From Armatimonadota bacterium (GTDB lineage Bacteria > Armatimonadota > UBA5829 > JAUSEB01), in NCBI GenBank assembly GCA_030649165.1, contig JAUSGG010000040.1, positions 1-37,382 of the forward strand: 37,382 nt of DNA, given 5' to 3'. The translations under genes were made by a program, and so were the position numbers. Of this stretch, positions 6,501 through 26,244 are shown piece by piece. Below the pieces are notes generated by a model. It was not told the DNA's origin, did not search any database, and worked only from the letters and a program-made list of their open reading frames with translations. The first letter of the stretch is position 1. The number at the start of each line of letters is the position of its first letter.

Positions 6501-7644
6501 GTTCCGTCTCCTTTCCGAATGAGTGGGCCAGGATGCGGTCGCAGACATAGTCCACCGTATCAATTGGCATATGTGAGTACATCGGTAAAGCAAGGCTTGA
6601 GCTGGAGACCTTTTCGGCTATCGGAAGCCGAGCGGCGCAGCCCTGCCCTATGTCTCGAAACAGCGTTTGGTTGTGCAAAGCCGGGTAGAAGTATCGTTTT
6701 GTTTGAACTCCGTCCTGCTTGAGCCTTTCGTACAGGTCGTCTCGCGTGATTGGAGAAATCTCCGGGTCGAAAAGGGCGACGATATAGTTGCGCGACGAGA
6801 CGCAATGGGGTGGCGTACGCTGGAAGCTAACCCCTGGAATCTCGCGCAAACGTTCCTCGTATCTCCGCATTATCGCGGCGCGGTTGGCGACCCACGTGTC
6901 GATTCGAGCCAGCGACCAGCGCGCGACAAGCGCATTGAACTCCGTCATGCGGGCCGACAGTCCCAGCCATTGCATGTCTTCGCCGTCAGGCGCTTTGCCG
7001 TAGTCGCGCATTTGCCGAATTCGGCGCGCCAGGTCGCCGTCGTTGGTGGTGACAAGACCGCCTTCTACAGCCGTGACGACCTTCGTGGGGCTCATACTGA
7101 ATGCCTCTCCGGCCCCGAAGTTCCCAACCGGCGTTCCCCTGTAAGAGCTGCCAAGTCCCTGCGCGCTGTCGAAGAGAAGAGCGAGGCCGTGTTTGTCGGC
7201 AAGCCTTAGGTAAGCGTCCATGTCGCCGGGAACGCCGAAAACGCATACGGGATAGATAGCGGACGTGCGTTCCGTTATCAGAGATTCAGCCGCGGAAGCC
7301 GACATAGTGAAGCTGTCCGGCTCGCTGTCGCAAAAGACAGGCTTGAGTCCGTTCCACAAAAGGGCCTGGGCTGTGGCGGCGAAGGTGAAAGTCGGCGTGA
7401 CGACCTCACTGCCTTTCGGCAGGTTTAGCGCGCGCAGCAGCAGCATCAGTCCGCTTGTCCCTGATGACACGGCTATGCAGTGGCTGACGCCGAGGCGGGC
7501 GCGGACGTCGGCCTCAAGCCCGGCGACCTGTTCGCCGACCGTCACGCGGCCTGAGGCGATAACCGCGCGTATCCCGGACTGCAACTCCGAGAAATCCGGC
7601 AAAGTCGGCCAGACGATCGGATAGCGGACCTGGTTATGTTTCAT
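6460..7644 (-). CDS. DegT/DnrJ/EryC1/StrS sugar aminotransferase
   Basis: PLP-dependent aminotransferase of nucleotide-sugar biosynthesis, 394 residues, the usual family length. The cofactor lysine is K188 in S-P-T-K-V-V-T, followed by E-G-G. The aspartate that contacts the pyridine nitrogen is D159 in D-S-A-Q-G. The N-terminal W-P-T...S-G-R-V-T-V-G and S-S-G-T-S-G-L loops are also family features. It would turn a keto sugar nucleotide into an amino sugar; the exact substrate cannot be read from sequence. It overlaps the preceding methyltransferase gene (ATGA) and the following OPX gene. Together with PIG-L, GNAT and ATP-grasp proteins in the locus it suggests an amino sugar that is further modified. 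Confidence 0.9.
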   Translation of the reverse strand: MKHNQVRYPIVWPTLPDFSELQSGIRAVIASGRVTVGEQVAGLEADVRARLGVSHCIAVSSGTSGLMLLLRALNLPKGSEVVTPTFTFAATAQALLWNGLKPVFCDSEPDSFTMSASAAESLITERTSAIYPVCVFGVPGDMDAYLRLADKHGLALLFDSAQGLGSSYRGTPVGNFGAGEAFSMSPTKVVTAVEGGLVTTNDGDLARRIRQMRDYGKAPDGEDMQWLGLSARMTEFNALVARWSLARIDTWVANRAAIMRRYEERLREIPGVSFQRTPPHCVSSRNYIVALFDPEISPITRDDLYERLKQDGVQTKRYFYPALHNQTLFRDIGQGCAARLPIAEKVSSSSLALPMYSHMPIDTVDYVCDRILAHSFGKETEHDVLLLIGSCGEL

Positions 7645-8345: not shown

Positions 8346-8367
8346 TGCTTTTCCCCGTGTTCGCCGG

Positions 8368-8495
8368 CCCTCCAGGTAAGATACCTGGAGGGATAGAAAA
8401 GATACCTGGCGGGATAGAAACCGGCCCTCCAGGTAAGATACCTGGAGGGATACAAAAGATACCTGGAGGGATACACCAGATACCTGAAGGGATAC
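8368..8495. repeat. array of CTCCAGGTA palindromes and half-units
   Basis: Two perfect palindromes, CCCTCCAGGTA-aga-TACCTGGAGGG at 8368-8392 and 8425-8449, are interleaved with three right-hand half-units (GATACCTGGCGGGATA at 8401, GATACCTGGAGGGATA at 8458, GATACCTGAAGGGATA at 8479). Half-units are separated by about 21 bases, so the block is a local tandem amplification of one arm. It lies in the 213-base gap between the sugar transferase and methyltransferase genes. Confidence 0.85.
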
Positions 8496-8558: not shown

Positions 8559-9173
8559 CTACGCCGCTCTTTGACGCGGTTGCCGAATCTTGTCCAGGCG
8601 CTCCATTATCTCAGCGTTCTTGGGCGTAATGTCGGCACAGGTAACGATCTTCCACGGCGTGAGCAGCAGTATCCTGAGGTCCAGAAGCATCGATCTGTTG
8701 TCCACATACCGCACATCCATTCTGAGCCGTTCCTCCCAGGACGGAGCGCTGCGCCCGCTGACCTGGACCAATCCGGTCACGCCGGGTTTTACGTCGTGCC
8801 GGCGACGCTCCTCCTCCGTGTAGTAGTCCGTGTACCGCACGTATAGGGGACGCGGACCCACCATGCTAAGATCACCTTTAAGAACGTTGACCAATTGCGG
8901 CAACTCGTCCAGACTGGTCTTGCGCAACAGACGCCCGAGCGCCGTCAGTCTTTGCGCGCTCGGAAGCAGATTGCCGTCCTCGTCGCGCGCGTCGGTCATC
9001 GTCCTGAACTTGAGCAGCGAGAATGGTTCTGCCTTATATCCCGCCCTTGCCTGGCGGAACAGCGCCGGTCGTCCCATAGTCAATATGATTGCCGCTGTCA
9101 CGAGAAGCGCTATCGGCGACAACAGCGCGAGCAGCGCCGCGGCGATTACGAAATCGAAAACCCTCTTGAACAA
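8559..9173 (-). CDS. PglC/WcaJ-type sugar-phosphate transferase (monotopic PGT)
   Basis: 204-residue monotopic phosphoglycosyl transferase that loads the first sugar phosphate on undecaprenyl phosphate. An N-terminal re-entrant hydrophobic helix (about 8-32) is followed by K-F-R-T-M (55-59), the catalytic Asp-Glu pair D89-E90 in S-L-D-E-L-P-Q-L, and V-G-P-R-P-L (105-110). The small size matches PglC rather than full-length WcaJ. The start is TTG at 9173, supported by AGGAAGG 9 bases upstream and by a 28-base overlap with the HAD gene. A second enzyme of the family lies at 11695-12357, so the locus has two possible initiating transferases. Confidence 0.92.
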   Translation of the reverse strand: MFKRVFDFVIAAALLALLSPIALLVTAAIILTMGRPALFRQARAGYKAEPFSLLKFRTMTDARDEDGNLLPSAQRLTALGRLLRKTSLDELPQLVNVLKGDLSMVGPRPLYVRYTDYYTEEERRRHDVKPGVTGLVQVSGRSAPSWEERLRMDVRYVDNRSMLLDLRILLLTPWKIVTCADITPKNAEIMERLDKIRQPRQRAA

Positions 9174-9886
9174 CTACTTACACCTTCCTGGAGCATCCAG
9201 TCCGATAGGATACAGCGAAGATCGCACACGGAATCGGCTTCGATCTCGGCTTTGTTTGTTTCAGACTCAGGCTCCAAGTGAGCCCGCAGTTGGCCGGGAA
9301 GCCTCATGCGAATCGTGCGCCAGCCTAACTGATTCGGCCCCGCGAAATCCTTCTCGGGATTGTCCGCGACGAAAACCAACTCATCCGCGCGGCAGCCCCA
9401 AACCCGCATAATCTCCTCAAATCCCCTGGTGTGGGGTTTCCAGTACTCTCTCCCCCATTTATCGGTATAAATGACAGTATCCACGAGTCTATTCAGTCCC
9501 AAAGCCTGGACTTTCAGCTCCTGGCCGAACCATATCCCATCGCAAAGCGCCGCAAGCCTCAGACCGCTTGTCCGCATTGCCCGCAGCATTTCCTCGATCC
9601 CCGACATAATCCGGATGTCAGGAGCGTGATTGCGATAAAGCTCGACCAGGTCCGTAACCTGGAAACCGCCGGCCAGTTGGGGATAAGCCGACAGCAGACG
9701 GCTGAACGCGTCGCCGCGGACACCTTGCAGAAAACCCTGCCAGAGGAAATCGGAAATTTCGGTCGGCCTTACTCCGGATTGCTCGCCGAGCGTCTTTGAA
9801 ATGCTTACGAAACCGCTCAGGACGTAATCGCATTCCAGGTAAAGCGTGTCGTCCATATCGAAAACGACGCCCCGGATCACTGCCAT
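9146..9886 (-). CDS. HAD-superfamily hydrolase
   Basis: 246 residues. Motif I is D-M-D-D-T (10-14), the motif III lysine is in W-K-P-H, and motif IV is F-V-A-D-N-P-x-K-D, as in haloacid-dehalogenase phosphatases of the phosphoglycolate phosphatase type. Motif II reads L-A-A-L-C-D-G, with Cys where Ser/Thr is usual, which may lower activity or reflect a specific substrate. ATG 9886 follows GGAG and overlaps the end of the ATP-grasp gene by 10 bases; the frame extends further upstream but only through that gene. Paired ATP-grasp and HAD genes next to PglC-type transferases recur in capsule loci; the reaction here is not known. Confidence 0.8.
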   Translation of the reverse strand: MAVIRGVVFDMDDTLYLECDYVLSGFVSISKTLGEQSGVRPTEISDFLWQGFLQGVRGDAFSRLLSAYPQLAGGFQVTDLVELYRNHAPDIRIMSGIEEMLRAMRTSGLRLAALCDGIWFGQELKVQALGLNRLVDTVIYTDKWGREYWKPHTRGFEEIMRVWGCRADELVFVADNPEKDFAGPNQLGWRTIRMRLPGQLRAHLEPESETNKAEIEADSVCDLRCILSDWMLQEGVSSCSRGFSIS

Positions 9887-10896
9887 AACGGCTGCTCCGT
9901 AAACTGCTCGACGTTGTGGCGCATCATGTAGACTCGCTTCCGGTAACCCCCAAACTCCTGTGGAATTCGCTCTCCCGTCAGCATCCTCACTATCCACTCC
10001 GGGTAACGCCCGCCCGCGAAGTGCGTCAGAGGGAATCCGCCGCCGAATCGAGGATTGACTTCCGTAAACGCCGGGCCGTCGTCAGTCAGGAAGGCTTGGA
10101 CCGTAATCGGGCCGCGCGCGCCCAGCGCATCCAGGACGTGGACAACGGGATCGCGAATGTCGTCATCCGCAATGGTGACGCCTTGTACCGATTCCCCGCC
10201 TATGGCCTTGAGGCGCAGACGCGGCACGTAATGCAGGGGCCGCCCTTTGAAGTCGAGAAGGGCGTCGATAGTGATCTCGGGCGCCGTTATGTTCTCCTGA
10301 ACCACGGGGTTGGGCGTTACATCGAGGACCGAACAAAGCGACTTAAGGCTTGCCCGATGCGTGTTCTGACTGGCGCTTCCGTTCCGAGGCTTGACGTATA
10401 GTCCGTCCGGCGCTCCGCTCCTCTCCGGACTATCGGTCCGCGAGATCTCGGCGGCCACGCCGGGGCTTATCAGCCACATCTGGTCCAAAAGACTCTCCGG
10501 CAGCCAGGTTCTGGGGGTGCATATCCCGTTCTCCGAAAAGAACTTGTACGTCAACCACTTGTCTCCACAAGTCCTGACCATCTGCTCAGATGAGATCAGC
10601 GCCCGGCTTCCGCGCTCCTCGAATCTGTGGGCGAATTTCGCCAACAGACCGAGTTCCGTATCTATGGTTGGAACAACCAGATCGATTCCGTGCGTCTCTA
10701 CCAGGTCCAGGACAGTGTCTATATAGTCAGGATCAGCGAGCGCAGGCAGCCGCAGGGCATGGTCGGCCGTGTACAGCGCGGGGGCAAGCGGGTCCATATC
10801 TCCCGCAAAGACGTGAACCCCTTGCGGGTGGACGGCTTCCTGAAAGGCTTTCAGGAGGGACACCCTGCGTCCGGCGCTGGTTATTAGAACGTTCAT
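9877..10896 (-). CDS. ATP-grasp protein, carbamoyl-phosphate-synthase-like
   Basis: 339 residues. An N-terminal Rossmann-like domain (N-V-L-I-T-S-A-G-R-R-V) is followed by an ATP-grasp fold: D-K-W-L-T-Y-K-F-F at the subdomain A/B entry, and the Mg-ATP site E-V-N-P-R-F-G-G-G (279-287). It resembles the CarB-like ATP-grasp proteins found in polysaccharide loci, which probably join a carboxylate to an amine by an acyl-phosphate. A plausible role is amidation of an amino sugar with an amino acid or other acid, but that is inference. ATG 10896 follows GGAGG closely. A 133-base repeat-bearing gap separates it from the PIG-L gene. Confidence 0.82.
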   Translation of the reverse strand: MNVLITSAGRRVSLLKAFQEAVHPQGVHVFAGDMDPLAPALYTADHALRLPALADPDYIDTVLDLVETHGIDLVVPTIDTELGLLAKFAHRFEERGSRALISSEQMVRTCGDKWLTYKFFSENGICTPRTWLPESLLDQMWLISPGVAAEISRTDSPERSGAPDGLYVKPRNGSASQNTHRASLKSLCSVLDVTPNPVVQENITAPEITIDALLDFKGRPLHYVPRLRLKAIGGESVQGVTIADDDIRDPVVHVLDALGARGPITVQAFLTDDGPAFTEVNPRFGGGFPLTHFAGGRYPEWIVRMLTGERIPQEFGGYRKRVYMMRHNVEQFTEQPLWQ

Positions 10897-11029: not shown

Positions 11030-11698
11030 CTACCCTATCTCCCGTACGAGCGCAAATGCTTCGGCGGCCGTCAGGCCTACCGTACCGCCGCGAAATCTGG
11101 CGAGCGCCTCGATTACCTCCAGAGAGCGTGAATGCGGCGGCTCTTTTATCTGGCTGCGTATGCATGACAACGCCTCGATCTTAGTTTTCAAATGGTCCGT
11201 AATATCCGCAAAGACGGTCGGTATGAATGCGGCGTCACCGTGCGGAGAAGCCCACTCTGTTTCGGACAGGGTCTCGTAGCACAGAATCTTCTTTACAGAG
11301 CAGCCGTCGATCGGACGGGCGGCGACGAGACCAGCCAGGTACACTACCTGATGGTCTGCGTGCAAGTCGCCGCGATGCGGCAGGTACACGATCGTGGGTT
11401 GCACGGCCCTGATGACCTTCGCTATACCATCGGCAAGCTCGTGACCGGGGACGGCGTCAAGCTTTGGGGCCGGGAAATCCAAGAACGTTGCGCCGGTAAC
11501 GCCGAGGATGCCGTGCGCCTCTCGAAGCTCAGTCCTGGTGCGCTCGACTTGTTCCGGCGGGAATATCTCCGGCGCTCCGCGGCTCATCACTACAACGTGC
11601 ACCTCGTCTCCGCGCGCGGCGTGACGCGCCATAACGCCGCCACAGCCCAGGACCTCATCATCCGGATGCGGAGCGACCACGAGCGTCTTTATGTTCAC
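11030..11698 (-). CDS. PIG-L/LmbE-family deacetylase
   Basis: 222 residues, the usual size. The zinc-binding signature P-H-P-D-D-E lies at 10-15 and the second metal motif H-A-D-H at 113-116, after D-L. The family removes N-acetyl groups from GlcNAc-type sugars (GlcNAc-PI, GlcNAc-Ins, bacillithiol precursors and polysaccharide intermediates). Here it most likely frees an amino group on a nucleotide-, lipid- or glycan-linked HexNAc, perhaps for the ATP-grasp protein downstream. The start is GTG 11698, with a strong AAAGGAGGT site in the upstream gene and a GTGA overlap with its stop. Confidence 0.88.
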   Translation of the reverse strand: MNIKTLVVAPHPDDEVLGCGGVMARHAARGDEVHVVVMSRGAPEIFPPEQVERTRTELREAHGILGVTGATFLDFPAPKLDAVPGHELADGIAKVIRAVQPTIVYLPHRGDLHADHQVVYLAGLVAARPIDGCSVKKILCYETLSETEWASPHGDAAFIPTVFADITDHLKTKIEALSCIRSQIKEPPHSRSLEVIEALARFRGGTVGLTAAEAFALVREIG

Positions 11699-12357
11699 GC
11701 GACCTCCTTTGGCGCCAGTTGTTCATCGGGGACGCCGCAGCGCTGCCAACCGTCTTTGCCGTAAACCGTGTCGGCTTTGAATACGACAGCCGGCGTCTTC
11801 AAGAGTACGAGAATATCCAACCAGGGAGTCCAATGCTCGACATACCAGATATCCGACTCTATTCGTTCGAGCCAGTTATGAGTTGCGCCGCCGTGGACCT
11901 GCTGCCAGCCGGTCATTCCCGGCGGCATCAGCATCCGTTTCTTGTCTCTCTGGCTGTAAGACTCGAGGTAATCGGGCATCAGCGGCCGCGGTCCCACCAG
12001 GCTCATTTGCCCCAAAAGCACGTTGAAGAGTTGCGGCAGTTCGTCCAGGCGGCGCTTTCTCAGCACACGCCCCACTTTCGTGACCCTGGGATCGCCGTCG
12101 AACGTGGGCAATCCGGCTCCAACGGACGCCGCGTTCGGTATCATCGTACGAAACTTGAAGATAGAGAACATCCTGCCGCGATAGCCGAGTCGTTTCTGCC
12201 TGAAAAACACCGGGCCCTGTGAGTCGAGCTTGATAGCAACCGCAAGCGCTGAGAAGAGCGGGCTCAACAACGCCAGCGCCAGAGAAGCTCCCGCGCAGTC
12301 GAAAAGACGTTTCAGTTTCAACAGAATAAGACGGATGGGAAGGCGCTTAGAAGACAT
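11695..12357 (-). CDS. second sugar-phosphate transferase (WcaJ/PglC C-terminal type)
   Basis: 220 residues. After a basic N-terminus and one hydrophobic segment (about 22-44) come K-F-R-T-M (68-72), the catalytic pair D105-E106 in R-L-D-E-L-P-Q-L, and G-P-R-P-L (122-126). It initiates glycan assembly on undecaprenyl phosphate. It differs clearly from the other transferase at 8559-9173 in length and in its C-terminal part (W-Q-Q-V-H-G, Y-V-E-H-W-T-P-W-L-D), so it probably uses another sugar. ATG 12357 follows GGGAG; a longer TTG start at 12375 lacks a site. It overlaps the GNAT gene by 11 bases. Confidence 0.9.
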   Translation of the reverse strand: MSSKRLPIRLILLKLKRLFDCAGASLALALLSPLFSALAVAIKLDSQGPVFFRQKRLGYRGRMFSIFKFRTMIPNAASVGAGLPTFDGDPRVTKVGRVLRKRRLDELPQLFNVLLGQMSLVGPRPLMPDYLESYSQRDKKRMLMPPGMTGWQQVHGGATHNWLERIESDIWYVEHWTPWLDILVLLKTPAVVFKADTVYGKDGWQRCGVPDEQLAPKEVA

Positions 12358-13303
12358 CGGATACTCCCATATCAAAACTCCAGTCCGCGGCAGCTAAGTC
12401 CGGCAGATTTTCCGTAAGAGCTTTCGCGTACAGGGTCGAGGAGGATTTCGACGCTTCGAAACCCAGGCTCTCATAGAGCCGCTGGTTGGGCTTGTACTGG
12501 CTCCAGATGGCCACCCGGTCAACTCCCATAAACTCGAAGAAGTCCGCCGCGGCTGACAAAAGACGGAGCTTAGGTTGGAGGCCGCCCCGACTGCGCAGTT
12601 CCAAAACGTGTCCCAGACGCTCCTCGTCGCCCGAATAGGTCTTCAGCGCCATTACGCCTTCGCAGCGGTCATCAACGATGGCCCCGAAGCAAGCGTAGTG
12701 GTTTAGAGGATGGGCAATATAGCGCCACTCGAACCACTTCGCGTTCTTGACCGGCGTGAGTACGTCGCCGTCGTCCTCCGTCCCGCGGTCGGGACAGTCT
12801 ACCCCGGAGAAGGTCGTCAGCCTGCGGACGGAACCGCGGTCAGACGCCTTCTTAGCCCGCTCACGAACTCTCCGACCGAAGTCAGAGAGAGGGAGGCTCA
12901 AGGTTGGGAAAGTCATGACTTTCTTCCAGCCGAGGAGCCGCTCCTTGAGCGGCGCCATGTTGCCGTTTGGGAAAGCGAAGACGAAATCGCATTTGGCCGA
13001 CGCGGATTGCTGGGCAAACTTTATCAGCTCCACTATGGTCCGGAGGTCCCGATGTTCCGGATGGACTGCCGCCTGCTGCCCGTACCCCGCCGTGTACGCC
13101 CGCCCGCGCCATCTGAAGGGATAGTAGCCGAACGAGTAATGGCCGATAATCCGATTCTCGTGCTCGGCGACGACAGCCACCCCCCTGTTGTCGGAGTGAC
13201 TCCAATCCCAGTGCAGGCGGCTGCGAGCGTGGCGTGGGAACACACTGACAAGCAGGTCTACAATCTCCGGAACGTCTTTTTCTTGCGCAACGCGTGTGAT
13301 CAT
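12347..13303 (-). CDS. GNAT-family N-acyltransferase
   Basis: 318 residues. The first 140 residues follow the GNAT fold: I-T-R-V-A-Q-E-K-D start, G-H-Y-S-F strand, and the acyl-CoA-binding turn A-V-H-P-E-H-R-D-L. The C-terminal half (about 170-318) looks like a second GNAT-like lobe ending in Y-E-S-L-G-F-E, as in two-domain polysaccharide acyltransferases. It may acetylate or otherwise acylate an amino sugar made in this locus. An acyl donor from the neighbouring acyl carrier protein is possible but not shown. ATG 13303 follows an AGGTGG site. A 151-base repeat region separates it from the ACP gene. Confidence 0.75.
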   Translation of the reverse strand: MITRVAQEKDVPEIVDLLVSVFPRHARSRLHWDWSHSDNRGVAVVAEHENRIIGHYSFGYYPFRWRGRAYTAGYGQQAAVHPEHRDLRTIVELIKFAQQSASAKCDFVFAFPNGNMAPLKERLLGWKKVMTFPTLSLPLSDFGRRVRERAKKASDRGSVRRLTTFSGVDCPDRGTEDDGDVLTPVKNAKWFEWRYIAHPLNHYACFGAIVDDRCEGVMALKTYSGDEERLGHVLELRSRGGLQPKLRLLSAAADFFEFMGVDRVAIWSQYKPNQRLYESLGFEASKSSSTLYAKALTENLPDLAAADWSFDMGVSDVF

Positions 13304-13454: not shown

Positions 13455-13703
13455 TCAGACCTGGGAACTCAATAGATTCCTGTCCGCGAGCTCCTTTTGG
13501 ATTTCGGTCAGGCTGTTCAGTGATATTAGCTGCTCGCCGTCGAACCTGGTCCCGAATACCGATTCTATCTCCACGATCAGGTTCAGTTGGCCCAGAGAGT
13601 CCCATTCGGAAACGTCGCCGATTTTCAAATCGGCGCTCACGGCGCCGGGATCAACGTTGAAAACACGGGTGACGGCGTCTACGATCCTGGTGTCCAGCGT
13701 CAT
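13455..13703 (-). CDS. acyl carrier protein
   Basis: 82 residues, normal ACP size. The phosphopantetheine serine is S36 in E-W-D-S-L-G, between the acidic helix II residues expected for the family (D-S-L-x-x-L-N-L-I-V-E-I-E). ATG 13703 overlaps the stop of the fkbH-like gene (ATGA), so the two are coupled; a longer frame upstream is a shadow of that gene. FkbH-type proteins load a three-carbon acid on a stand-alone ACP, so this is probably its partner. A 4'-phosphopantetheinyl transferase is not in the window. Confidence 0.88.
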   Translation of the reverse strand: MTLDTRIVDAVTRVFNVDPGAVSADLKIGDVSEWDSLGQLNLIVEIESVFGTRFDGEQLISLNSLTEIQKELADRNLLSSQV

Positions 13704-15391
13704 TGCGCTTTCGCCTCCACACGGATATAATCCGGGCAATACATCCCGATCCCTCCAGGTACCTTACCTGGAGAGAGGCGCAACCTACGAAGCCCATCCA
13801 CGCCCCCGAATCCGAGTTGGTCGAGCAGCCCTTCGGCCGGGGCGTTCTTCGTGGTGGGAATGTACTCAGCAACAATCTCCTTGACGCCTGTTTTGGCCAA
13901 ATCGTCCGCGACGAAAGAGAAGAACGCCTGCTCCACCTTTCTGCCGATAACGCGACAGCTCAGAAGGCAGGTATCGATTTCCGCGGCTTCGCCTTTGATC
14001 TTCGCGATAATAACCCCGACTATGCCGTTGCTTCCATAGCGGTCGACCAACTCCGTGTCGTAGACGCGGACATTCGGCGAGGCTATGAACCTTTCGATAT
14101 CGCTCACGTCATACCGTCTGGTCGTCAGGTTGAACTGGTTGGTCTTCTGAGTAAGCTGGGCGATCCTTTGGACTTGCTCGCGATGATTGACCCAAATCCG
14201 CATCTCCATCTCCAGGTTGCGGTAGTAGTCTTCCAGATCGGCGAACTTCCCGCTCTCTTGCTGCCTCCGAATGTCCGCCTTGTACATCTCCACTCGATGC
14301 TTGTCTTCATTCGTCTGCATCAGCGTGTCGAAATACTCCGCCGTAACCGACTCGAACCAGCTATTGAGCGTAAAGGGGTCCGAGGGGAACTCAGGAACCG
14401 ACACGTCGGGCAGGGCCTGTTTCACGGCCCCCCGCTCGATCGGGGAGTCGTCGACGAACACAAAGCTGTCGAGCCCCAGCGCAAGCTCTTTCGATAGTTG
14501 AGCGATCGACTCCGGCTTGGGATTCCAACCGATCTTCCGCGCGACAAAATCGTCGTATGTCAGCGCCATCATCGGGTGTTCCGCGAAGACCTGGTCAACG
14601 TCTTCCTCGTTGTTCTTACTCGCTATGGCCAGCAGGAAGCCTCGGTCCTTTAGCCGCCGAAGCTGCATCTGGAAGTCGCGGTAGACCTTGCCAAGGCCGT
14701 CCTCGCCGAGCATGATGCCCTGCATCTTGTCTTCGCCGATCACACCGCCCCAGATTGTGTTGTCGAGATCGACAACCAGGACTTTCTTGCTGCTGCCGGA
14801 CAGCGCCCGAATGGACCGGGCGTAGAGCGCGGCCAGCTCTTCCTGGCCTCGCGGGCTCAGCGGAATCCGGCCTATGTACCACAACCGTTCGTCATAGAGA
14901 CTTGCGCTGCCGAGGCGCGCCGCGGCGGCGGCCCAGTCGCAGATAATGAGCTTGTCGATCCGCCGCTCCGAGCGCCACCTGCTGAGTCCCAGGTTAAAGG
15001 CGTCAATCATCGCGGTATGGAATCGAGTGTTACGGTCGAGCGAGTGGCAGCCGTTGGACATCGGGTAAGCCAAAGTGTTGATGAGCGCGCGGCGCTCGGG
15101 ATTGGCTTGAAGATATGCGCCGATAGGCTCCAGGACCTCTTTCAGACGTGTCTCCACAAGGTCCACAGCCTGCGCAAACTCGGATATTTCACCCGAATGC
15201 TGCTGGAACAACCTGAAGCCTTCGAGATAGACGAGCACGAACTTAGGCCGCTCGGTGTTGAGCGGCGAGGAAGGGTCCAGAAACTCCTGCGCAACCTGAT
15301 CGTACGGCGCGAAGTCCATGTGTTGGCCCGGAAGTTGTTCCTCCAGGAACCTGCGCATGCCCGCGATATTCACGTTGGAAAGAACGCGCAC
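13700..15391 (-). CDS. FkbH-like HAD-IIIC protein (acyl-ACP loading)
   Basis: 563 residues, the family's usual length. The HAD-IIIC motif is V-V-D-L-D-N-T-I-W-G-G-V (D208 and D210 catalytic), with a conserved F-V-D-D-S-P-I-E-R motif IV and a GNAT-like C-terminal domain (N-Q-F-N-L-T-T-R-R-Y). FkbH proteins take the glyceryl group from 1,3-bisphosphoglycerate onto an ACP, or act in related acyl steps in polyketide and polysaccharide pathways. The neighbouring ACP supports that role. A CTCCAGGTA palindrome is read in frame near the C-terminus (L-S-P-G-K-V-P-G-G-I-G, about 539-549). The start is GTG 15391 (AAAGGA about 12 bases upstream); ATG 15358 is an alternative. Confidence 0.88.
   Translation of the reverse strand: MRVLSNVNIAGMRRFLEEQLPGQHMDFAPYDQVAQEFLDPSSPLNTERPKFVLVYLEGFRLFQQHSGEISEFAQAVDLVETRLKEVLEPIGAYLQANPERRALINTLAYPMSNGCHSLDRNTRFHTAMIDAFNLGLSRWRSERRIDKLIICDWAAAAARLGSASLYDERLWYIGRIPLSPRGQEELAALYARSIRALSGSSKKVLVVDLDNTIWGGVIGEDKMQGIMLGEDGLGKVYRDFQMQLRRLKDRGFLLAIASKNNEEDVDQVFAEHPMMALTYDDFVARKIGWNPKPESIAQLSKELALGLDSFVFVDDSPIERGAVKQALPDVSVPEFPSDPFTLNSWFESVTAEYFDTLMQTNEDKHRVEMYKADIRRQQESGKFADLEDYYRNLEMEMRIWVNHREQVQRIAQLTQKTNQFNLTTRRYDVSDIERFIASPNVRVYDTELVDRYGSNGIVGVIIAKIKGEAAEIDTCLLSCRVIGRKVEQAFFSFVADDLAKTGVKEIVAEYIPTTKNAPAEGLLDQLGFGGVDGLRRLRLSPGKVPGGIGMYCPDYIRVEAKAQ
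13750..13776. repeat. CTCCAGGTA palindrome inside the fkbH-like coding region
   Basis: CTCCAGGTA (13753-13761), loop cct, TACCTGGAG (13765-13773). It is read in frame on the minus strand as part of the C-terminal end of the FkbH-like protein. Confidence 0.75.
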
Positions 15392-15399
15392 GTTTTCGT

Positions 15400-15789
15400 C
15401 TATCCTTTCTCCAGGAACTCAACCAGTCCCCGCACACGGTCCATTACGAACGCGACGCGACGCCCGTCGAAGAGCACGGCGGGCTTTGGTGGAGAGACCA
15501 CGGCGCAGCCTCGCAGCCGCGCCTCCTCCAGACTCTGGTCCAGGTCATCCACTTCGTAGCAAATGTGATAGAGTTTGCATCCCCGCTTGAGCCACGCCGA
15601 AACCGGCCCTTCGGCGGCGTCCTGCACAAGCTCCGTCGGCAGCCCGCCTACATCAACAAGTCGCAAATGCGCGCCCTGTTCGGGGTCGAACGTCGTATCG
15701 GTCAACGGCGTCGCCGACTCTTCGGCGCGCAGAGCGGTGTATGCCTCTTCGATGTTGTTCACTGCCATCGCGACGTGATGAAATCTCAC
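15400..15789 (-). CDS. VOC-superfamily (glyoxalase/methylmalonyl-CoA-epimerase-like) protein
   Basis: 129 residues with two beta-alpha-beta-beta-beta modules. The first starts R-F-H-H-V-A-M-A-V and carries L-R-L-V-D-V-G, then T-E-L-V-Q; the second starts L-Y-H-I-C-Y-E-V-D-D-L and ends G-R-R-V-A-F-V. Histidines and glutamates sit where VOC metal ligands are expected. GTG 15789 follows GGAGAG and shares a GTGA overlap with the stop of the glycosyltransferase fusion, so I prefer it to a GTG at 15819. The gene ends 9 bases before the fkbH-like start, which suggests action on the same acyl intermediate (isomerase or epimerase). The exact reaction is unknown. Confidence 0.75.
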   Translation of the reverse strand: MRFHHVAMAVNNIEEAYTALRAEESATPLTDTTFDPEQGAHLRLVDVGGLPTELVQDAAEGPVSAWLKRGCKLYHICYEVDDLDQSLEEARLRGCAVVSPPKPAVLFDGRRVAFVMDRVRGLVEFLEKG

Positions 15790-18287
15790 TTCGGTTGTCT
15801 CTCCATATCTCCCGCCCACGCCGGCTCTCGGGAGACAGACTCAGCCTTGCGGGAGCCGTCATTTCGAGCGGAGCGCCGGCGGAGTCGAGAAATCCGCTTT
15901 TCCTTCCGCATGTTTTCGGAAAAAGCAGATTCCTCACTTCGTTCGGAATGACATGCTCTATCCCTCCAGGTATCCTTACCTGGAGGGACGGACAGTCGTC
16001 GGTTTCTATCCCTCCAGGTATCCTTACCTGAAGGGACGGAAAACAGTCGTCGGTACTCGTCGGCTACGGCCTGATTCACTATGACCGCGTCGAAAAGCCG
16101 TTCGGCCCGTTCACGGGCAGCCCGGCCCATTCGGTCCCTAAGTTCGGGATCGGCAATCATAACGCTCAAAGCCTTGCGCAACGAATCAACGTCTTTAGGC
16201 GGCGCCAACAGCCCCGTCTTGCCGTCTTCCACTGCGTCAACCAACCCAACGATGGCGGTTGCCACCGCCGGAACTCCCATCGCCGCGGCTTCGATGACCA
16301 CGCTGCCGAAGCCTTCCCTGTAGCTGGGCAGGCACAAGATATCCGCCGCGCCGATATACCGCTCCGGCTCGCGCGTCCGGCCCACGACGTGTATCCGCGG
16401 ATTACTCGTCAGTTCATCAATCACGGACCGAGGGAGCGGATCGAACTCCGGCTCGAACGGCCCCACCAGCACCAATTCCACTTTCTTGCCCGCAATGTCC
16501 AAGCTCGTAAAGGCGGACACCAATTCGACGATACCTTTGTCGCGATTGACGCGGCCCACGAAGAGAACGAGTGTCGCATTCTCGTCAACGCCCAACTCGC
16601 TCCGAGTATCCGCGGCCGCGGGTCCTTTCCATATATCGGAATCAAACCGGTCCAAATTGACCCCACTTATCGACCCGGAGGCCAAAACGGCAATCTTTGA
16701 CGGCCTGATTATGCGTTCGCTGATGAGGAATTGCCGCTGAGAGTCACTGTCGGCGTAGCAGTTCGTAGTCAGTATCGCAATGATCCTGTCGCACAGTCTG
16801 ACAATCCAGCGGCGGAGACCTCGCAGCTCGACCCATCGCTGGCCGGTATAGGTGTGAACACGTATCTTGACCCGCGCAAGCCACGCCGCCACGGCAACAA
16901 GCAGGCCGGCCTTGGCCGTGCTCGAATGAACGATGTCGAACCGCTCGGACCTGAAAAGCTTGTAAAGCCGGAACAGCGACTTGATGTCCTGGAATATACT
17001 GATGTCGCGGGACATCTCGACGCAGTGACAGGGCAGCGATAGTCCGCGGCTTATCGACTCCAACTCCGCGCTGAGGCCCGACACGAGCAGGCACTCGATA
17101 TCATTGTCCGCGATTGTCCTCATCTGGCTGCGCAATAGGGCGGCGAACGTCAGCGGCGTGGTGACGACGCGGCAGAGTCTCAAACGTTGTTGTATCGGGA
17201 CACCCTTGTCCCGATGCTCCCGTACTGACTGAGTTTCGGGACACGGGTGTCCCGAAACAACGGAAAACGGGTTGGTTTCGGGATTTCCGCTGCGCTCAAA
17301 TCCCGAAACAACGGGAATCCCCGGATTCTGTTTCGTGCTCGATTGCAAATCGCGCACGATCGAGGTGATGGGCTGGTGTTTCGGGACTTCAGTCCCGAAA
17401 CCGGCGTCGGGAAGCCCGGGAACCTGGGTTTGCATCACCGTTCGCAGCGCTTCTTCAGCGTCGGCCCATTCGCACGGGGTCAAGTCGCGGTTCCGCCTGC
17501 TTATGAGCCGCCCTTGCAGGCCCAAATATGTCGCGGCGCGGTATATCTCGCCCTTCAGATACGCCTGGCCGATCAAAGCGGCCGTTTGCGGCCAGCCTAC
17601 GAATGACGGGCCGTACTTCCGGTATATCCGTCGAAGAGTCCGCCCGGACTGCATGTAATCCCGCAGGTACGCCGTAGGCGTTTTGCTCTGCTCCCGGCAG
17701 AAGTAGAGCGGACGCGGTATCTTGCCGAACGTGGACGATTTGCACGAGCGACACCACAACTCGTTTTCCTCCGCCCTGCGATAAGATGCGTCGTAGGGAT
17801 ACTTGCGCCACCATTCAGCGCGGCCCATAGCCGATCCCTGCACTAGAATCCCTCTCCTGAGCGCGGCATCGGGGCTTGCGTCGAGCTGATCGAGACATCT
17901 AACGCCGATCAGATTGTTCTCGCCGTCAATGATGTAAATCCCGTTGCTTACTATGTCCGCGTTCGGATTGGCGTCCAGATACTCGACCTGTTGAGCCAAT
18001 CGGTCGGGGCGCATAATATCGTCGCCGTCCATTCGGGCGATGTACTCGCCGCGCGCCAATTCCGTAATCCGGTTCAGTCTATACGGCGCGCCCCGGTTCT
18101 CGCCATCGGAGATCACCTTCACGCGCGGATCGTCAACGGACAGGGCGATGGCAAGGGAGCCGTCCGTTGAGCCGTCGTTGATAAGGAGAAGCTCCCAATC
18201 TTGGAACGTCTGCGCGAAAACCGACCGAATAGCGTCCGCCAGCGTCGTCTCGTTATTAAAGAAGGATATTCCGACCGTGACACGCAT
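15786..18287 (-). CDS. GT2-GT4 glycosyltransferase fusion with repeat-encoded linker and tail
   Basis: 833 residues. Residues 1 to about 300 are a family 2 glycosyltransferase (N-D-G-S-T-D around 37-42, metal motif M-D-G-D-D at 86-90). A family 4 enzyme runs from about 369 to 749 (R-L-C-R-V-V-T-T-P-L start; E-x7-E site in Y-R-E-G-F-G-S-V-V-I-E). Both should add sugars at the cytoplasmic face. The linker (about 300-368) is largely encoded by four TTTCGGGA-type palindromes, and the last 84 residues by two CTCCAGGTA palindromes and one HSERSEES-type repeat. The upstream GT2 stop overlaps this ATG (TGATG, AGGAG site). The stop overlaps the VOC gene (GTGA), which supports the long end as real. GT4 could also start alone at TTG 17183, but no ribosome site is visible. 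Confidence 0.82.
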   Translation of the reverse strand: MRVTVGISFFNNETTLADAIRSVFAQTFQDWELLLINDGSTDGSLAIALSVDDPRVKVISDGENRGAPYRLNRITELARGEYIARMDGDDIMRPDRLAQQVEYLDANPNADIVSNGIYIIDGENNLIGVRCLDQLDASPDAALRRGILVQGSAMGRAEWWRKYPYDASYRRAEENELWCRSCKSSTFGKIPRPLYFCREQSKTPTAYLRDYMQSGRTLRRIYRKYGPSFVGWPQTAALIGQAYLKGEIYRAATYLGLQGRLISRRNRDLTPCEWADAEEALRTVMQTQVPGLPDAGFGTEVPKHQPITSIVRDLQSSTKQNPGIPVVSGFERSGNPETNPFSVVSGHPCPETQSVREHRDKGVPIQQRLRLCRVVTTPLTFAALLRSQMRTIADNDIECLLVSGLSAELESISRGLSLPCHCVEMSRDISIFQDIKSLFRLYKLFRSERFDIVHSSTAKAGLLVAVAAWLARVKIRVHTYTGQRWVELRGLRRWIVRLCDRIIAILTTNCYADSDSQRQFLISERIIRPSKIAVLASGSISGVNLDRFDSDIWKGPAAADTRSELGVDENATLVLFVGRVNRDKGIVELVSAFTSLDIAGKKVELVLVGPFEPEFDPLPRSVIDELTSNPRIHVVGRTREPERYIGAADILCLPSYREGFGSVVIEAAAMGVPAVATAIVGLVDAVEDGKTGLLAPPKDVDSLRKALSVMIADPELRDRMGRAARERAERLFDAVIVNQAVADEYRRLFSVPSGKDTWRDRNRRLSVPPGKDTWRDRACHSERSEESAFSENMRKEKRISRLRRRSARNDGSRKAESVSREPAWAGDMERQPK
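15858..15952. repeat. dispersed GTCATTTCGAGC...GGAATGAC repeat, copy 1
   Basis: Starts GTCATTTCGAGCGGAGCG, holds GCGGAGTCGAGAAATC, and ends CTTCGTTCGGAATGAC. On the minus strand it reads in frame as H-S-E-R-S-E-E-S and S-R-L-R-R-R-S-A-R-N-D at the end of the glycosyltransferase fusion. Another copy is at 33486-33724. Confidence 0.8.
15961..15988. repeat. CTCCAGGTA palindrome, perfect 12-bp arms
   Basis: TCCCTCCAGGTA, loop tcct, TACCTGGAGGGA. It is read in frame in the tail of the glycosyltransferase fusion as V-P-P-G-K-D-T-W-R-D. Confidence 0.85.
16009..16036. repeat. CTCCAGGTA palindrome, one mismatch
   Basis: TCCCTCCAGGTA, loop tcct, TACCTGAAGGGA. It is a direct duplicate of the copy 48 bases to its left and also in frame (V-P-S-G-K-D-T-W-R-D). 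Confidence 0.85.
17195..17400. repeat. cluster of four TTTCGGGA/TCCCGAAA palindromes
   Basis: Four hairpins share the same outer arms: TCGGGACA/TGTCCCGA (17195-17214), TTTCGGGACAC/GTGTCCCGAAA (17234-17257), TTTCGGGATTT/AAATCCCGAAA (17276-17308, 11-base loop) and TTTCGGGACT/AGTCCCGAAA (17379-17400). All lie inside the glycosyltransferase fusion between its GT2 and GT4 domains. A related pair is at 33543-33622. Confidence 0.88.
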
Positions 18288-19405
18288 CAGCTTGGGTCTC
18301 CTGAAGCGCTTTTCGCGGTTCGAGGGTTCAGCATGGCGACCATCCTCCATACCGTGTCGAATTTGGAAAGTCTGTAATATGCCGCGCGCGCGCGATCTCT
18401 CAAGGCGTATCTGACGACGAATGAAACGCAGTAACGAACGGGGATATTGAACCCATAGGACAGCGCGGACTCCCTGAATATCGGCCAGGTCCACAAGCCC
18501 ATCTCCGCCGCTTGTGAGCAGAACGAATACCAGCATTGGAAAAAGACCCGCCGGAGCGCGTCCACGTCATAAACGTGCTTCGTTTCGTTGGCGTTTGCCA
18601 ACTTCAAGAGCCATGCTTCCGCTCTTTGGACGTAGTCCAAAGACTTCGGAATGGGCGATCCGGCGAGCGATCGGTGCAGTTCGAGATCTTCTTCGGACGG
18701 CTCGATTCCAAGATGCATGATGGCCTGCCTGTGTACGAAGCTCGACCACTCGCGCACCTCTGACTCGTGCTTGGAAGTGGCCTGCTCGCCGCAAACCCTG
18801 TAATGCAAGAGGGGTTCGGGTATGTTCACCATCTTGCAGTGACGCGAAAAACGAAGCCAAAACTCGTAGTCTTCGGCCTGTTTGAACTCAGTATTGTAGT
18901 AAAGGTCGTGCTTGGCGATCAGTTCCCTGCGCATCATAGCTGTTGGATGGGCGATGCACGGCCAGAACATCTGGGCGGCCCTGATCTCTTTGTCGTCCGT
19001 CACGGGAAGCGCCGCGCCGCCGCGCCGGCCCAGATAGCTCCACCCGGTCCCGCAAACGCCGACCTCCGGGCGGCTCTCCATAAGGGCTACCTGTTTTGCC
19101 AGCCTGCGCCGCGCGCAGATGTCGTCGCTGTCCATACGTGCAACGTATTTGCCGCGAGCCTCCGCCAAGCCCTTGTTCAAGGCCGCGACTACTCCCTGGT
19201 TCTTCTGATGGAACACGCGGACGCGGTCGTCGGTCCGTGCGTACCAATCCAGAACAGCGCCTGAGCTGTCCGTTGAACCGTCGTTGACCGCGATCAGTTC
19301 CAGTTGCGAACAACTCTGAGACAGGACGCTGTCGATGGCTTCTCGCAAATACTTCGCGCCGTTATACACCGGCATAATCACGCTGACTATAGGCGTATCG
19401 CTCAA
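18287..19405 (-). CDS. family 2 glycosyltransferase (third of three paralogues)
   Basis: 372 residues. The GT-A motifs are S-V-I-M-P-V-Y-N-G (8-16), N-D-G-S-T-D (41-46) and M-D-S-D-D (91-95). It transfers a sugar from a nucleotide donor to the growing lipid-linked glycan in the cytoplasm. The start is TTG 19405, with AAGGAG 9 bases upstream and a TTGA overlap with the stop of the previous GT2 gene; the frame runs further upstream only through that gene. It ends in a TGATG overlap with the GT2-GT4 fusion. It aligns without gaps over the first 100 residues with the two GT2 genes upstream, so the three arose by tandem duplication. Confidence 0.88.
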   Translation of the reverse strand: MSDTPIVSVIMPVYNGAKYLREAIDSVLSQSCSQLELIAVNDGSTDSSGAVLDWYARTDDRVRVFHQKNQGVVAALNKGLAEARGKYVARMDSDDICARRRLAKQVALMESRPEVGVCGTGWSYLGRRGGAALPVTDDKEIRAAQMFWPCIAHPTAMMRRELIAKHDLYYNTEFKQAEDYEFWLRFSRHCKMVNIPEPLLHYRVCGEQATSKHESEVREWSSFVHRQAIMHLGIEPSEEDLELHRSLAGSPIPKSLDYVQRAEAWLLKLANANETKHVYDVDALRRVFFQCWYSFCSQAAEMGLWTWPIFRESALSYGFNIPVRYCVSFVVRYALRDRARAAYYRLSKFDTVWRMVAMLNPRTAKSASGDPS

Positions 19406-20544
19406 TTTGCGGGGCTCCTTCGTAAGATTGGGATGCGAAACATCAACGCTTTTGGACCCTTTCGCACAAGGCGTTTGAACGATCTGCCGGACGCCGACTT
19501 TTCCAGCGTCGCGGAGACGTAAGACCGGGTGAAGAGCAGGGCCAGCGAGGGCACGGACCGTCCGGACGTCCGGCGTCCCATAGCGTAAAGCTCGGAACTT
19601 CTGAACTTCCTCCACTTCGCCAGGAGAAACACATCGGTCATCGCGCACATGGAAATCCACCGTTCGGCAAGCAGCGCGCTCAACTCTTCCCGGTCGAAAA
19701 TGGCAGCCTTCTCGTTAGCGTCGATCAGTCGGAACAGCCAGCGCTCAAGGTCGTCCAAGTCTTCCAGCGACTTCGGCGGAAAAGCGTGCGTGCACATTGA
19801 CAGATGGATGGCGAGTTCCTTGTCCGAAGGCTCGATGCCCATGATGCGCAGGAACCTGCCATGGATGGTGGAGAGGTATCTGTAGCATTCCTCGTCCGAA
19901 TACCGTCGGGTGATGGAGTCGGCGTGCGTTCTTATCTTCATCAGAACTTCGGGTATATTCGCCGGCTCGCAGTGAGGCAGAAGCCGAGTGATCAGATCAT
20001 AGTCTTCCCCTACTGGAAAACCGGCGTCGTAGTACAGGCTATGTTTTGCGATCAATTCGCGGCGCATCATGATTGATGTATTCGATATCGTCATCAGAAA
20101 CAGCATCCGGCACTTCAGCTTCCTGGGATCCGTCGGTGGACACGCCCCCACGAATTCCCCCAGGTCGCCAAAGAAACTGCAACTTACGCCGCAAAATCCG
20201 ATTTCGGGGTTGTTCTCCAGAAGCGCGACCTGTTTAGCCAGCCTGTCGGGCAGGCTGACGTCGTCGCTATCCATCACGGCGACGTAATTCCCCCTGGCGT
20301 GTCGAAGGGCGTTGTTTCGCGACGCCGCGATGCCGGAGTTCTCCTGCCGCAACACCCGGACCCGGCTATCCTGTTTCTCATAGCGAGCGAGGATATCGGC
20401 GGAGCCGTCGGTTGAGCCGTCGTCCACGGCCAAAAGCTCGAAGTCCTGAAAAGACTGGTTCAGGATGCTGTCTATAGCTTCCGGCAAATACTCCGCGCTA
20501 TTGTAAACCGCCATAACGACACTGACTGTAGGACAATTGCTCAA
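19402..20544 (-). CDS. family 2 glycosyltransferase (second of three paralogues)
   Basis: 380 residues. S-V-V-M-A-V-Y-N (8-15), D-D-G-S-T-D (41-46) and M-D-S-D-D (91-95) give a GT-A fold with the metal-binding motif. I chose TTG 20544, because GGAGG lies 8 bases upstream and the protein then starts exactly level with its two paralogues. ATG 20559 is 5 codons earlier and has no clear site. The C-terminal part (R-S-S-E-L-Y, then T-L-E-K-S and G-R-S-F-K-R) is close to that of the first paralogue, which makes it a useful comparison for the repeat found there. Confidence 0.85.
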   Translation of the reverse strand: MSNCPTVSVVMAVYNSAEYLPEAIDSILNQSFQDFELLAVDDGSTDGSADILARYEKQDSRVRVLRQENSGIAASRNNALRHARGNYVAVMDSDDVSLPDRLAKQVALLENNPEIGFCGVSCSFFGDLGEFVGACPPTDPRKLKCRMLFLMTISNTSIMMRRELIAKHSLYYDAGFPVGEDYDLITRLLPHCEPANIPEVLMKIRTHADSITRRYSDEECYRYLSTIHGRFLRIMGIEPSDKELAIHLSMCTHAFPPKSLEDLDDLERWLFRLIDANEKAAIFDREELSALLAERWISMCAMTDVFLLAKWRKFRSSELYAMGRRTSGRSVPSLALLFTRSYVSATLEKSASGRSFKRLVRKGPKALMFRIPILRRSPAN

Positions 20545-20587
20545 GCCGTTAACCTCCATCCATTACACACGTGACGTTGAAGCGCAC

Positions 20588-20612
20588 AGGCGAACACAAG
20601 GTTCGCCCCTAC
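20588..20612. repeat. AGGCGAACACAAGGTTCGCCCC repeat, copy 1, supplies a stop codon
   Basis: Contains GGCGAACACAAGGTTCGCC, itself an imperfect palindrome. On the minus strand its TAG (20609-20611) is the stop codon of the GT2 gene 20609-21703. The copy at 20724-20748 is inverted relative to it. Confidence 0.85.
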
Positions 20613-21703
20613 CAACCATTATTGGCTATTGCGCGCGCGAAGCGTTTGAATGACCTGCCCGTCCGCGTCTTTTCCAGAACACTCGACACGCTCGCGCGAC
20701 AGAAGAACAGAGCTGACGACACAGTAGGGGCGAACCTTGTGTTCGCCTGGGCGCGGAAGAGTTCCGATCTCGTGAATCTCTTCCACATCCACACTCCCAA
20801 CTCGACCTCGCCCGCGAACAGACAGCGCCAGCATTCGAACAAGACCCGCGCGAACGCTTTTCCATCACGAACCTTGTTATTATTATTGGCTTCAAGCAGC
20901 TTGCGGAGCCATTTTTCAAATTGCTCCACGTACTCCCGCGACTTAGGGAAACTCGCCGAATGGAACGACAGATGCAGATCGAGTTCTTCGTCGGTCGGCT
21001 CGATTCCGAGGCTGCCGATAGCCATTTTGTGAACCAGCCCCGACCATCGACAGACTTCCGATCGAAACTCCGTTGTCGCCTGCTTATCCCGGACCCGGTA
21101 GAGCAGCAAAGGCTCCGGAATGTTCGCCATCTCGCAATACTGGGAAAAGCGAATCCAAAGCTCGTAGTCCTCCGCCTGCTTGAACTCCATGTTGTAATAG
21201 AGATTGTGTTTTACGATCAAGTCCCGGCGCATAATGACCGTCGGATGCGCCATGCACGGCCCGAAAAGAAGCCAGCTTTTGATCTCTTCCGACTCGGTTT
21301 TCGGCATAGTTACGCCGGAACTGTCGCCAAAGAGCCTGCAAGCGGTTCCGCAAACGCCGACTTCGGGATGGCTCTCCATAAAGGCGACCTGTTTCTCCAG
21401 CCTGTTGGGAAGGCTGATGTCGTCGCTGTCCATCCGAGCGACGTATTTGCCTCGGGCCGACTCCAAGCCTCTTTTGAGAGTGGCGGCTACTCCACTGTTT
21501 TCCTGATGGATTACCCGCACTCGATCATCAGACTGCTGATACCGGTCCAGGATTTCGCCGGAACCGTCAGTCGAACCGTCGTTTATGATGATAAACTCGA
21601 AGTCCCCGAACGTCTGTCCAAGAATGCTGTCCACCGCTTCTCCGAGATACTCCGCGGCGTTATAGACCGGCATAACGACCGAGACGATTGGCGTGTGATC
21701 CAT
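20609..21703 (-). CDS. family 2 glycosyltransferase (first of three paralogues), repeat-edited C-terminus
   Basis: 364 residues. Motifs S-V-V-M-P-V-Y-N (8-15), N-D-G-S-T-D (41-46) and M-D-S-D-D (91-95) sit at the same positions as in the two downstream paralogues, which also supports ATG 21703 over ATG 21712 (the latter overlaps the upstream stop but is only 2 bases after GGAGG). Near the C-terminus, A-Q-A-N-T-R-F-A-P-T is encoded by a dispersed GEHKVRPY-type repeat. The second paralogue has a different 11-residue segment there with the same spacing. The stop codon lies in another copy of the repeat. Role as for the neighbours: sugar addition to the lipid-linked glycan. Confidence 0.87.
   Translation of the reverse strand: MDHTPIVSVVMPVYNAAEYLGEAVDSILGQTFGDFEFIIINDGSTDGSGEILDRYQQSDDRVRVIHQENSGVAATLKRGLESARGKYVARMDSDDISLPNRLEKQVAFMESHPEVGVCGTACRLFGDSSGVTMPKTESEEIKSWLLFGPCMAHPTVIMRRDLIVKHNLYYNMEFKQAEDYELWIRFSQYCEMANIPEPLLLYRVRDKQATTEFRSEVCRWSGLVHKMAIGSLGIEPTDEELDLHLSFHSASFPKSREYVEQFEKWLRKLLEANNNNKVRDGKAFARVLFECWRCLFAGEVELGVWMWKRFTRSELFRAQANTRFAPTVSSALFFCRASVSSVLEKTRTGRSFKRFARAIANNGW
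20724..20748. repeat. GTAGGGGCGAACCTTGTGTTCGCC repeat, copy 2, inside a GT2 gene
   Basis: Inverse orientation to the copy at 20588. It is read in frame on the minus strand as A-Q-A-N-T-R-F-A-P-T within the first GT2 paralogue. The two copies bracket 111 bases. Confidence 0.85.
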
Positions 21704-21708
21704 CTTGC

Positions 21709-22599: not shown

Positions 22600-22670
22600 G
22601 GTCTTTACCTTCCTCCGCACGACGCCATGATCACTTGGCATACCGGTCTCGTTTCACTGGATCTCCGTTC

Positions 22671-26233: not shown

Positions 26234-26244
26234 CTCATTTCTCC

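Follow-up and report, generated by a model that had tools for sequence, protein, structure and literature searches.

A VOC-superfamily protein, an FkbH-type protein and a stand-alone acyl carrier protein (ACP), encoded side by side in a polysaccharide locus of an Armatimonadota genome, are best explained as an ACP-dependent glyceroylation module for glycans in which the VOC protein contributes a step of its own, a reading to which we give somewhat better than even chances. It builds on genuine genes, translational coupling, conserved active sites, a conserved gene linkage and a glycan context, all of which were read from nucleotide and protein sequences. In the proposed mechanism, of which the substrate, the reaction of the VOC protein, the acceptor sugar and the identity of the transferase in this locus are predicted, FkbH would transfer the glyceryl group of 1,3-bisphosphoglycerate to the adjoining ACP as a thioester, the VOC protein would act by way of an enediolate at C2 of this alpha-hydroxyacyl-ACP, most likely by epimerization from D to L or a related isomerization, and an N-acyltransferase would move the acyl group from the ACP to an amino sugar. 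What is new here, in the best reading of the data, is the use of FkbH-ACP chemistry on glycans, accompanied by a conserved VOC step. In the open-access literature, no article was found that treats FkbH together with either O-antigen or glyoxalase, and one mentions a gene with an fkbH domain in a locus for a flagellar glycan (PMC7099621); subscription journals may contain prior reports.

The window, meaning the whole stretch of DNA analyzed, is an entire contig of 37,382 bases (C155) from a draft genome of 5.48 Mb that is 99.3% complete. VOC, FkbH and ACP are genuine genes, close-packed on the minus strand, where the order is fused glycosyltransferase, VOC, FkbH, ACP, GNAT, phosphoglycosyl transferase, PIG-L, ATP-grasp, HAD phosphatase, second phosphoglycosyl transferase, methyltransferase and DegT (Table 1). 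At the FkbH/ACP junction the sequence ATGA holds both the ATG of the ACP gene (13703-13701) and the TGA of the FkbH gene (13702-13700), and this four-base overlap confirms the translational coupling claimed in the original prediction. The likely start of the VOC gene is a GTG at 15789, which overlaps the stop of the upstream glycosyltransferase gene, and its stop is separated from the GTG of the FkbH gene by 8 bases (15392-15399), not by the 9 bases given earlier. The GNAT gene is the next one past the ACP gene, after a gap of 151 bases. Glycan genes flank the cassette on both sides (two phosphoglycosyl transferases, PIG-L, ATP-grasp, DegT and glycosyltransferases) and no PKS or NRPS module occurs within the 37,382-base window, in agreement with the earlier description of a cassette amid glycosyltransferases in a polysaccharide locus.

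Table 1. Features of the window discussed in the text, with coordinates, strand and supporting evidence.
Feature	Position	Strand	Evidence or remark
VOC protein, distinct FkbH-linked subfamily	15400-15789	-	PF13669 53 bits; H/E/H/E metal set, invariant Asp; 129 aa from GTG
FkbH-type HAD-IIIC glyceryl transferase/phosphatase (predicted)	13700-15391	-	TIGR01686 295 bits; catalytic motifs invariant in alignment
Stand-alone acyl carrier protein	13455-13703	-	PF00550; 4-base ATGA overlap with FkbH; Ser 36 in DSL
GNAT-family protein, candidate acyl transferase	12347-13303	-	PF00583 + PF13527
Phosphoglycosyl transferase (Bac_transf)	11695-12375	-	PF02397 213 bits
PIG-L family de-N-acetylase	11030-11698	-	PF02585 101 bits
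ATP-grasp ligase (PylC-like)	9877-10896	-	equivalent gene after PIG-L in L049
HAD phosphatase	9146-9997	-	PF13419
Second phosphoglycosyl transferase	8559-9173	-	PF02397 204 bits
DegT-type sugar aminotransferase, nearest QdtB/perosamine-synthase group	6460-7644	-	PDB kin 2po3, 7b0d, 3frk, 3bn1
Fused glycosyltransferase ORF, GT2 + GT4 domains	15786-18536	-	repeat-like linker between domains
Palindromic repeat, closely similar copy	13749-13776	.	in frame inside 3' coding end of FkbH; extra residues versus relatives in alignment
Palindromic repeat array	15957-16049		tail of upstream glycosyltransferase ORF
Palindromic repeat	8364-8494		

The score of FkbH against TIGR01686 is about twice the curated cut-off of 146.65, the protein carries the HAD motif DLDNT as well as the DD and SCR motifs, and residues D208, D210, T212, D314 and D315 of the DxDxT and DD motifs are invariant in the alignment. 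FkbH occurs as a single copy genome-wide. The adjoining ACP matches PF00550 with 21.9 bits (cut-off 20.8) and has the serine of the DSL motif, a position occupied by Ser in 73/73 aligned FkbH-linked ACPs. As an FkbH-ACP pair has a known role in tetronate and FK520-type pathways (PMC7489565), the window cassette might simply supply glyceryl-ACP or methoxymalonyl-ACP to a polyketide or NRPS product encoded elsewhere in the genome. However, the genome search revealed only two ketosynthases, both stand-alone (416 and 422 residues), and neither an NRPS condensation domain nor a modular PKS was detected in this 99.3% complete genome, and therefore the usual consumers of glyceryl-ACP are absent. In addition, the cassette has glycan genes on both sides, and among its neighbors (glycosyltransferase, GNAT, phosphoglycosyl transferase and PIG-L) neither a dehydrogenase pair nor an O-methyltransferase adjoins it. 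A supply role for polyketides or NRPS products is strongly disfavored by these searches and was rejected; we give it hardly any weight. Compared with the glycerate-utilization operon of tetronate producers (Mad7/Mad8 and relatives), the window lacks the PKS, the tetronate acyltransferase and the dehydratase pair and has the VOC and glycan genes instead, and of the FabH-like enzyme and PKS partner that mark that operon, no KASIII was found among the cassette neighbors and no modular PKS in the genome. The methoxymalonyl-ACP pathway (FK520 and relatives) has FkbH and a stand-alone ACP as a first step in common with the window cassette, but its two dehydrogenases, O-methyltransferase and PKS are not encoded beside the latter.

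The linkage between FkbH and VOC was surveyed in GTDB species genomes, in the 80 loci whose FkbH comes closest to a query alignment led by the FkbH of the window; FkbH similarity was the sole basis of this choice. The loci were scanned for VOC proteins twice, with an iterated VOC profile and then with a profile of the cassette VOC (A2). A match to the iterated profile was obtained in 22/80 loci, and a VOC of the same subfamily was located at most 2.5 kb from FkbH on the same strand in 21 of the 80. The A2 profile gave 22 matches in 1.46 Mb of FkbH loci, 21 near FkbH on the same strand and one elsewhere; the 2.5-kb same-strand zone makes up 14% of the searched strand-bases, and the chance of 21/22 matches falling there is about 4e-17. 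Because 59 of the 80 FkbH loci contain no VOC, including one in which FkbH lies beside PseH/NeuB (L067), the VOC is optional to FkbH loci, a point against the proposed module. In 36 whole genomes, VOCs of the cassette type are rare, with mostly one or two matches per genome, and the weaker matches are probably ordinary epimerases. A case outside the locus selection is genome G297, where the domain match of the second FkbH is followed by a VOC about 1.2 kb further downstream.

Maximum-likelihood analysis of 96 FkbH proteins placed the FkbH of the window in a well-supported clade (SH-aLRT 98) of 28 rows, 15 of them with VOC; one step out there are 30 rows, 17 with VOC, as compared to 5/66 outside. 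The VOC label changes 13 times on this tree versus 20.1 times in shuffles, and 0/500 shuffles gave a value as low. The clade of the window spans Bacillota, Bacteroidota, Ignavibacteriota, Chloroflexota and others, so FkbH and VOC travel together, in a wide but patchy distribution such as horizontal transfer of a module would be expected to produce. FkbH-ACP occurring mostly without VOC or glycan genes, the outcome that would have spoken against the original prediction, is not seen in the window's own clade, whereas outside this clade most FkbH proteins are without VOC. Within the window's own phylum, FkbH exceeded the cut-off in 18/291 genomes, most of them with an adjoining ACP; a contiguous VOC-FkbH-ACP arrangement was found nowhere else among these 291 genomes, which likewise speaks against the proposed module, and no other genome with FkbH has a VOC on the same contig. 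A genome of the same class (G221) contains a truncated VOC end and a truncated FkbH-ACP on separate contigs, fragments that are consistent with the gene order of the window, though unjoined.

The VOC protein matches PF13669 (Glyoxalase_4) with 53.4 bits (cut-off 27). Residues H15, D45, E63, H85, C87, A114 and E134 (numbering of the 139-aa ORF) are invariant in cassette VOCs. Four of these, H15, E63, H85 and E134, are the metal ligands, in the His-Glu-His-Glu pattern of glyoxalase I, and are conserved wherever the residue is covered. Scores of 46.6 bits against methylmalonyl-CoA epimerase (TIGR03081) and 19.1 bits against glyoxalase I (TIGR00068) are far under the curated cut-offs of 114.95 and 120, respectively, and the position of Glu48, the catalytic base of methylmalonyl-CoA epimerase, is occupied by I, V, L or T in 23/23 aligned VOCs. 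Glyoxalase I was ruled out by its cut-off, and methylmalonyl-CoA epimerase by its cut-off together with the loss of Glu48. Methylmalonyl-CoA epimerase 1jc4 and the VOC protein have the VOC fold in common and agree in three of four metal-ligand positions, whereas at the fourth Gln65 of 1jc4 stands opposite E63; its thioester C2 chemistry can serve as a model for the VOC protein, although the latter has a hydrophobic residue in place of the catalytic Glu48. The nearest solved structures, 3hdp and 2qh0 (149 bits), were deposited as 'glyoxalase'. Judged by its residues and scores, the VOC protein is a catalytic-looking metal enzyme, kin of methylmalonyl-CoA epimerase and glyoxalase I and a member of neither family. 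These two enzymes move a proton at the carbon beside a thioester or hemithioacetal. As the glyoxalase-type metal site is kept but the base of methylmalonyl-CoA epimerase is missing, the VOC protein is probably an isomerase or epimerase of an ACP-bound acyl group. C2 of glyceryl-ACP is just such a carbon, and epimerization from D to L would be the simplest reaction that the VOC protein could carry out unaided, which would fit those loci, the window among them, that have neither KASIII nor SDR. The role of the VOC protein, left open in the original prediction, is in this way narrowed to a metal-dependent isomerase or epimerase type rather than settled.

Since it is a VOC-superfamily member with the H/E/H/E metal set of glyoxalases, the protein might also be a bystander, such as a methylglyoxal-clearing glyoxalase or an ordinary methylmalonyl-CoA epimerase. 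The same two cut-offs, the hydrophobic or Thr residue at the Glu48 position and a linkage to FkbH many-fold above chance all argue against such a bystander, which we regard as quite improbable. Alternatively, the VOC protein might make a different acyl group, if the enediolate lost water to give pyruvyl-ACP and this were reduced to lactyl-ACP, so that the glycan would carry lactyl or pyruvyl and not glyceroyl groups. By established chemistry, an acidic alpha proton beside a beta-hydroxyl makes the elimination plausible, and SDR reductases accompany the VOC cassette in 4/21 loci; however, both in the window and in most VOC loci the surroundings of the cassette hold no FabG-like SDR, and the PDB relatives of the VOC protein are of epimerase or glyoxalase types and not dehydratases, which leaves the formation of lactyl or pyruvyl groups unlikely.

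The gene context of the 21 VOC loci is consistent with glyceroylation of glycans. An ACP lies at most 500 bp from FkbH in 20 of them, glycan genes are present within 7 kb in 17, no ORF of more than 1500 residues occurs in any of the 21, and a PglD/PseH-type acyltransferase was found in 16/21, versus 13/59 loci without VOC. In one locus from Ignavibacteriota (L057) and one from Bacillota (L090), VOC-FkbH-ACP lies inside a Pse operon and adjoins PseH and PseI; in both, PseB, PseC, PseH and PseI exceed their NCBIfam cut-offs, and PseG is present too, in L057 below its cut-off. Clostridial loci (L054, L072, L112) encode a phosphoglycosyl transferase, one or two PglD-like proteins, LicD and an epimerase. 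Nearest to the window in content is L049, with a phosphoglycosyl transferase, PIG-L, a PylC-like ATP-grasp protein and glycosyltransferases around the cassette, and PIG-L is also present in the VOC-FkbH loci L072 and L079. In L093 (9824-13661), an MBOAT O-acyltransferase comes after FkbH-ACP-VOC, an arrangement suggesting that the acyl group is transferred outside the cytoplasm. On a plasmid of Paludibaculum fermentans (L142, 3819-4485), an ACP and a cassette-type VOC adjoin each other in an XrtA exosortase polysaccharide locus with no FkbH nearby, and this occurrence of VOC beside ACP therefore points to an ACP-bound substrate of the VOC protein. An ACP is thus the partner that the VOC has in common across loci, and the off-loading enzyme varies. 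The survey shows that many phyla have FkbH-ACP-VOC, in most cases within glycan loci and frequently accompanied by an N-acyltransferase of the GNAT, PseH or PglD type, and this recurrence supports ACP-dependent glycan decoration, as originally predicted, as the best reading, with a predicted acceptor and transferase. As a separate observation, L140 (5619-6035) has a cassette-type VOC beside PglD-like and asparagine-synthase-like proteins, and no FkbH in the stretch examined.

KASIII is encoded in 9/21 VOC loci, which counts against a plain glyceroyl product, so the final acyl group there may be longer. Bacteroidales loci (L052, L060, L079, L082, L085, L091, L097) have KASIII, a second ACP and sometimes an SDR beside VOC-FkbH-ACP, and hydroxyacyl groups of C4 and longer are known on O-antigens (PMC10609480). 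KASIII might thus condense glyceryl-ACP with another unit to form a longer hydroxyacyl group for the sugar, with the VOC protein acting on the product. Against such chain extension, 12/21 VOC loci lack a nearby KASIII and none was found among the cassette neighbors in the window; the VOC is kept in KASIII-free loci, and therefore its step needs no extension. As a general account of the cassette, chain extension seems improbable to us.

If the cassette does glyceroylate glycans, the transferase in the window would probably be the neighboring GNAT protein; PIG-L could expose the amine to be acylated, and the DegT aminotransferase is an alternative source of the acceptor amine. The GNAT protein had been named earlier as a candidate transferase, and this assignment is plausible but tentative. 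PF13527-type proteins (weak scores) follow FkbH-ACP in L056 and L069, in the same position as the GNAT protein of the window, but their identity is only 19-20%, and this remote relationship to other FkbH-linked GNATs counts against the assignment. A search of the rest of the phylum for homologues of the window GNAT gave none with E below 1e-10, and its AlphaFold model, built from a three-sequence input, is poor (mean pLDDT 39). Neither NeuB nor PseH was detected among the window genes scanned.

For the Pse operons of L057 and L090, PseH is a natural candidate transferase. The 4-amine to which PseH attaches an acyl group ends up as N7 of pseudaminic acid (PMC6388019). Pse5Am7Gra of Tannerella forsythia carries its N-glyceroyl group at this PseH-acylated nitrogen, the same position as predicted for L057 and L090. 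A candidate gene for the N-glyceroyl group of T. forsythia 'remains elusive' according to a 2018 report (PMC6120980), and in 2019 its genetic basis 'remains a major challenge' (PMC6388019). N-glyceroyl sugars exist on bacterial glycans (PMC6388019, PMC10609480), among them a D-glyceroyl amino sugar in the O-antigen of Pragia fontium, as cited in PMC10609480. By the presence of the cassette in a Pse operon, L057 and L090 are candidates for PseH-type N-glyceroylation of nonulosonic acid; the window, with neither NeuB nor PseH among the genes scanned, is not placed in this group.

The flagellar locus of Campylobacter jejuni resembles these loci in having an fkbH-domain gene, cj1302, in a pseudaminic acid glycan locus and glyceric acid derivatives on the sugar; it differs in that the glyceric acid is dimethylated, and the sections available from the source mention no VOC protein (PMC7099621). 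The authors describe cj1302 as a pseudogene in strain 12664, which has no dimethylglyceric acid on its flagellar glycan, and report that dimethylglyceric acid is likewise absent from strain 12661, but with cj1301 lost instead (PMC7099621). The association between loss of cj1302 and missing dimethylglyceric acid is therefore a correlation only.

A broader proposal can be put forward only tentatively, and we consider it rather doubtful as a whole: FkbH-linked VOCs may constitute an undescribed acyl-ACP epimerase or isomerase family by which glyceryl-ACP is given its configuration (D to L), and bacteria in general may use the cassette, together with a PseH-, PglD- or GNAT-type enzyme, to make amino sugars with N-glyceroyl groups or acyl groups derived from them, which would also account for the step that is missing for N-glyceroyl pseudaminic acid. 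The conserved cassette in Pse operons is a concrete candidate route to glyceroyl groups and indicates the acyltransferase that should use it. FkbH chemistry would be extended from antibiotics to cell-surface sugars, and a first role would be proposed for a VOC subfamily whose solved structures (3hdp, 2qh0) are named only as glyoxalases.

The palindromic repeat CCTCCAGGTANNNTACCTGGAGG occurs at about 70 sites on many contigs of the genome, and none were found for a reversed control. With this genome-wide repeat, and with GC and GC3 of the cassette close to those of other genes of the contig, contamination of the contig was judged unlikely. The upstream ORF, in which a repeat-like linker joins GT2 and GT4 domains, may have arisen when repeats fused two genes. 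Three paralogous GT2 glycosyltransferase genes lie in tandem (18287-21772), with DNA repeats 63-76% alike, apparently as a result of tandem duplication. The segments 21709-22641 and 24986-27390 contain one gene that is GT11-like by its sequence motif and two for fucosyltransferases of the GT10 type (PF00852), which could function in fucose or colitose transfer. At 29829-33108, genes resembling, by eye, GDP-mannose dehydratase and Fcl/ColC accompany a gene whose product is a ColD-like aminotransferase (PDB 2gms, 482 bits), and together they suggest a pathway to GDP-colitose. Near the other end of the contig, at 268-2091, two putative genes resemble, by eye, gas vesicle GvpL/GvpF.
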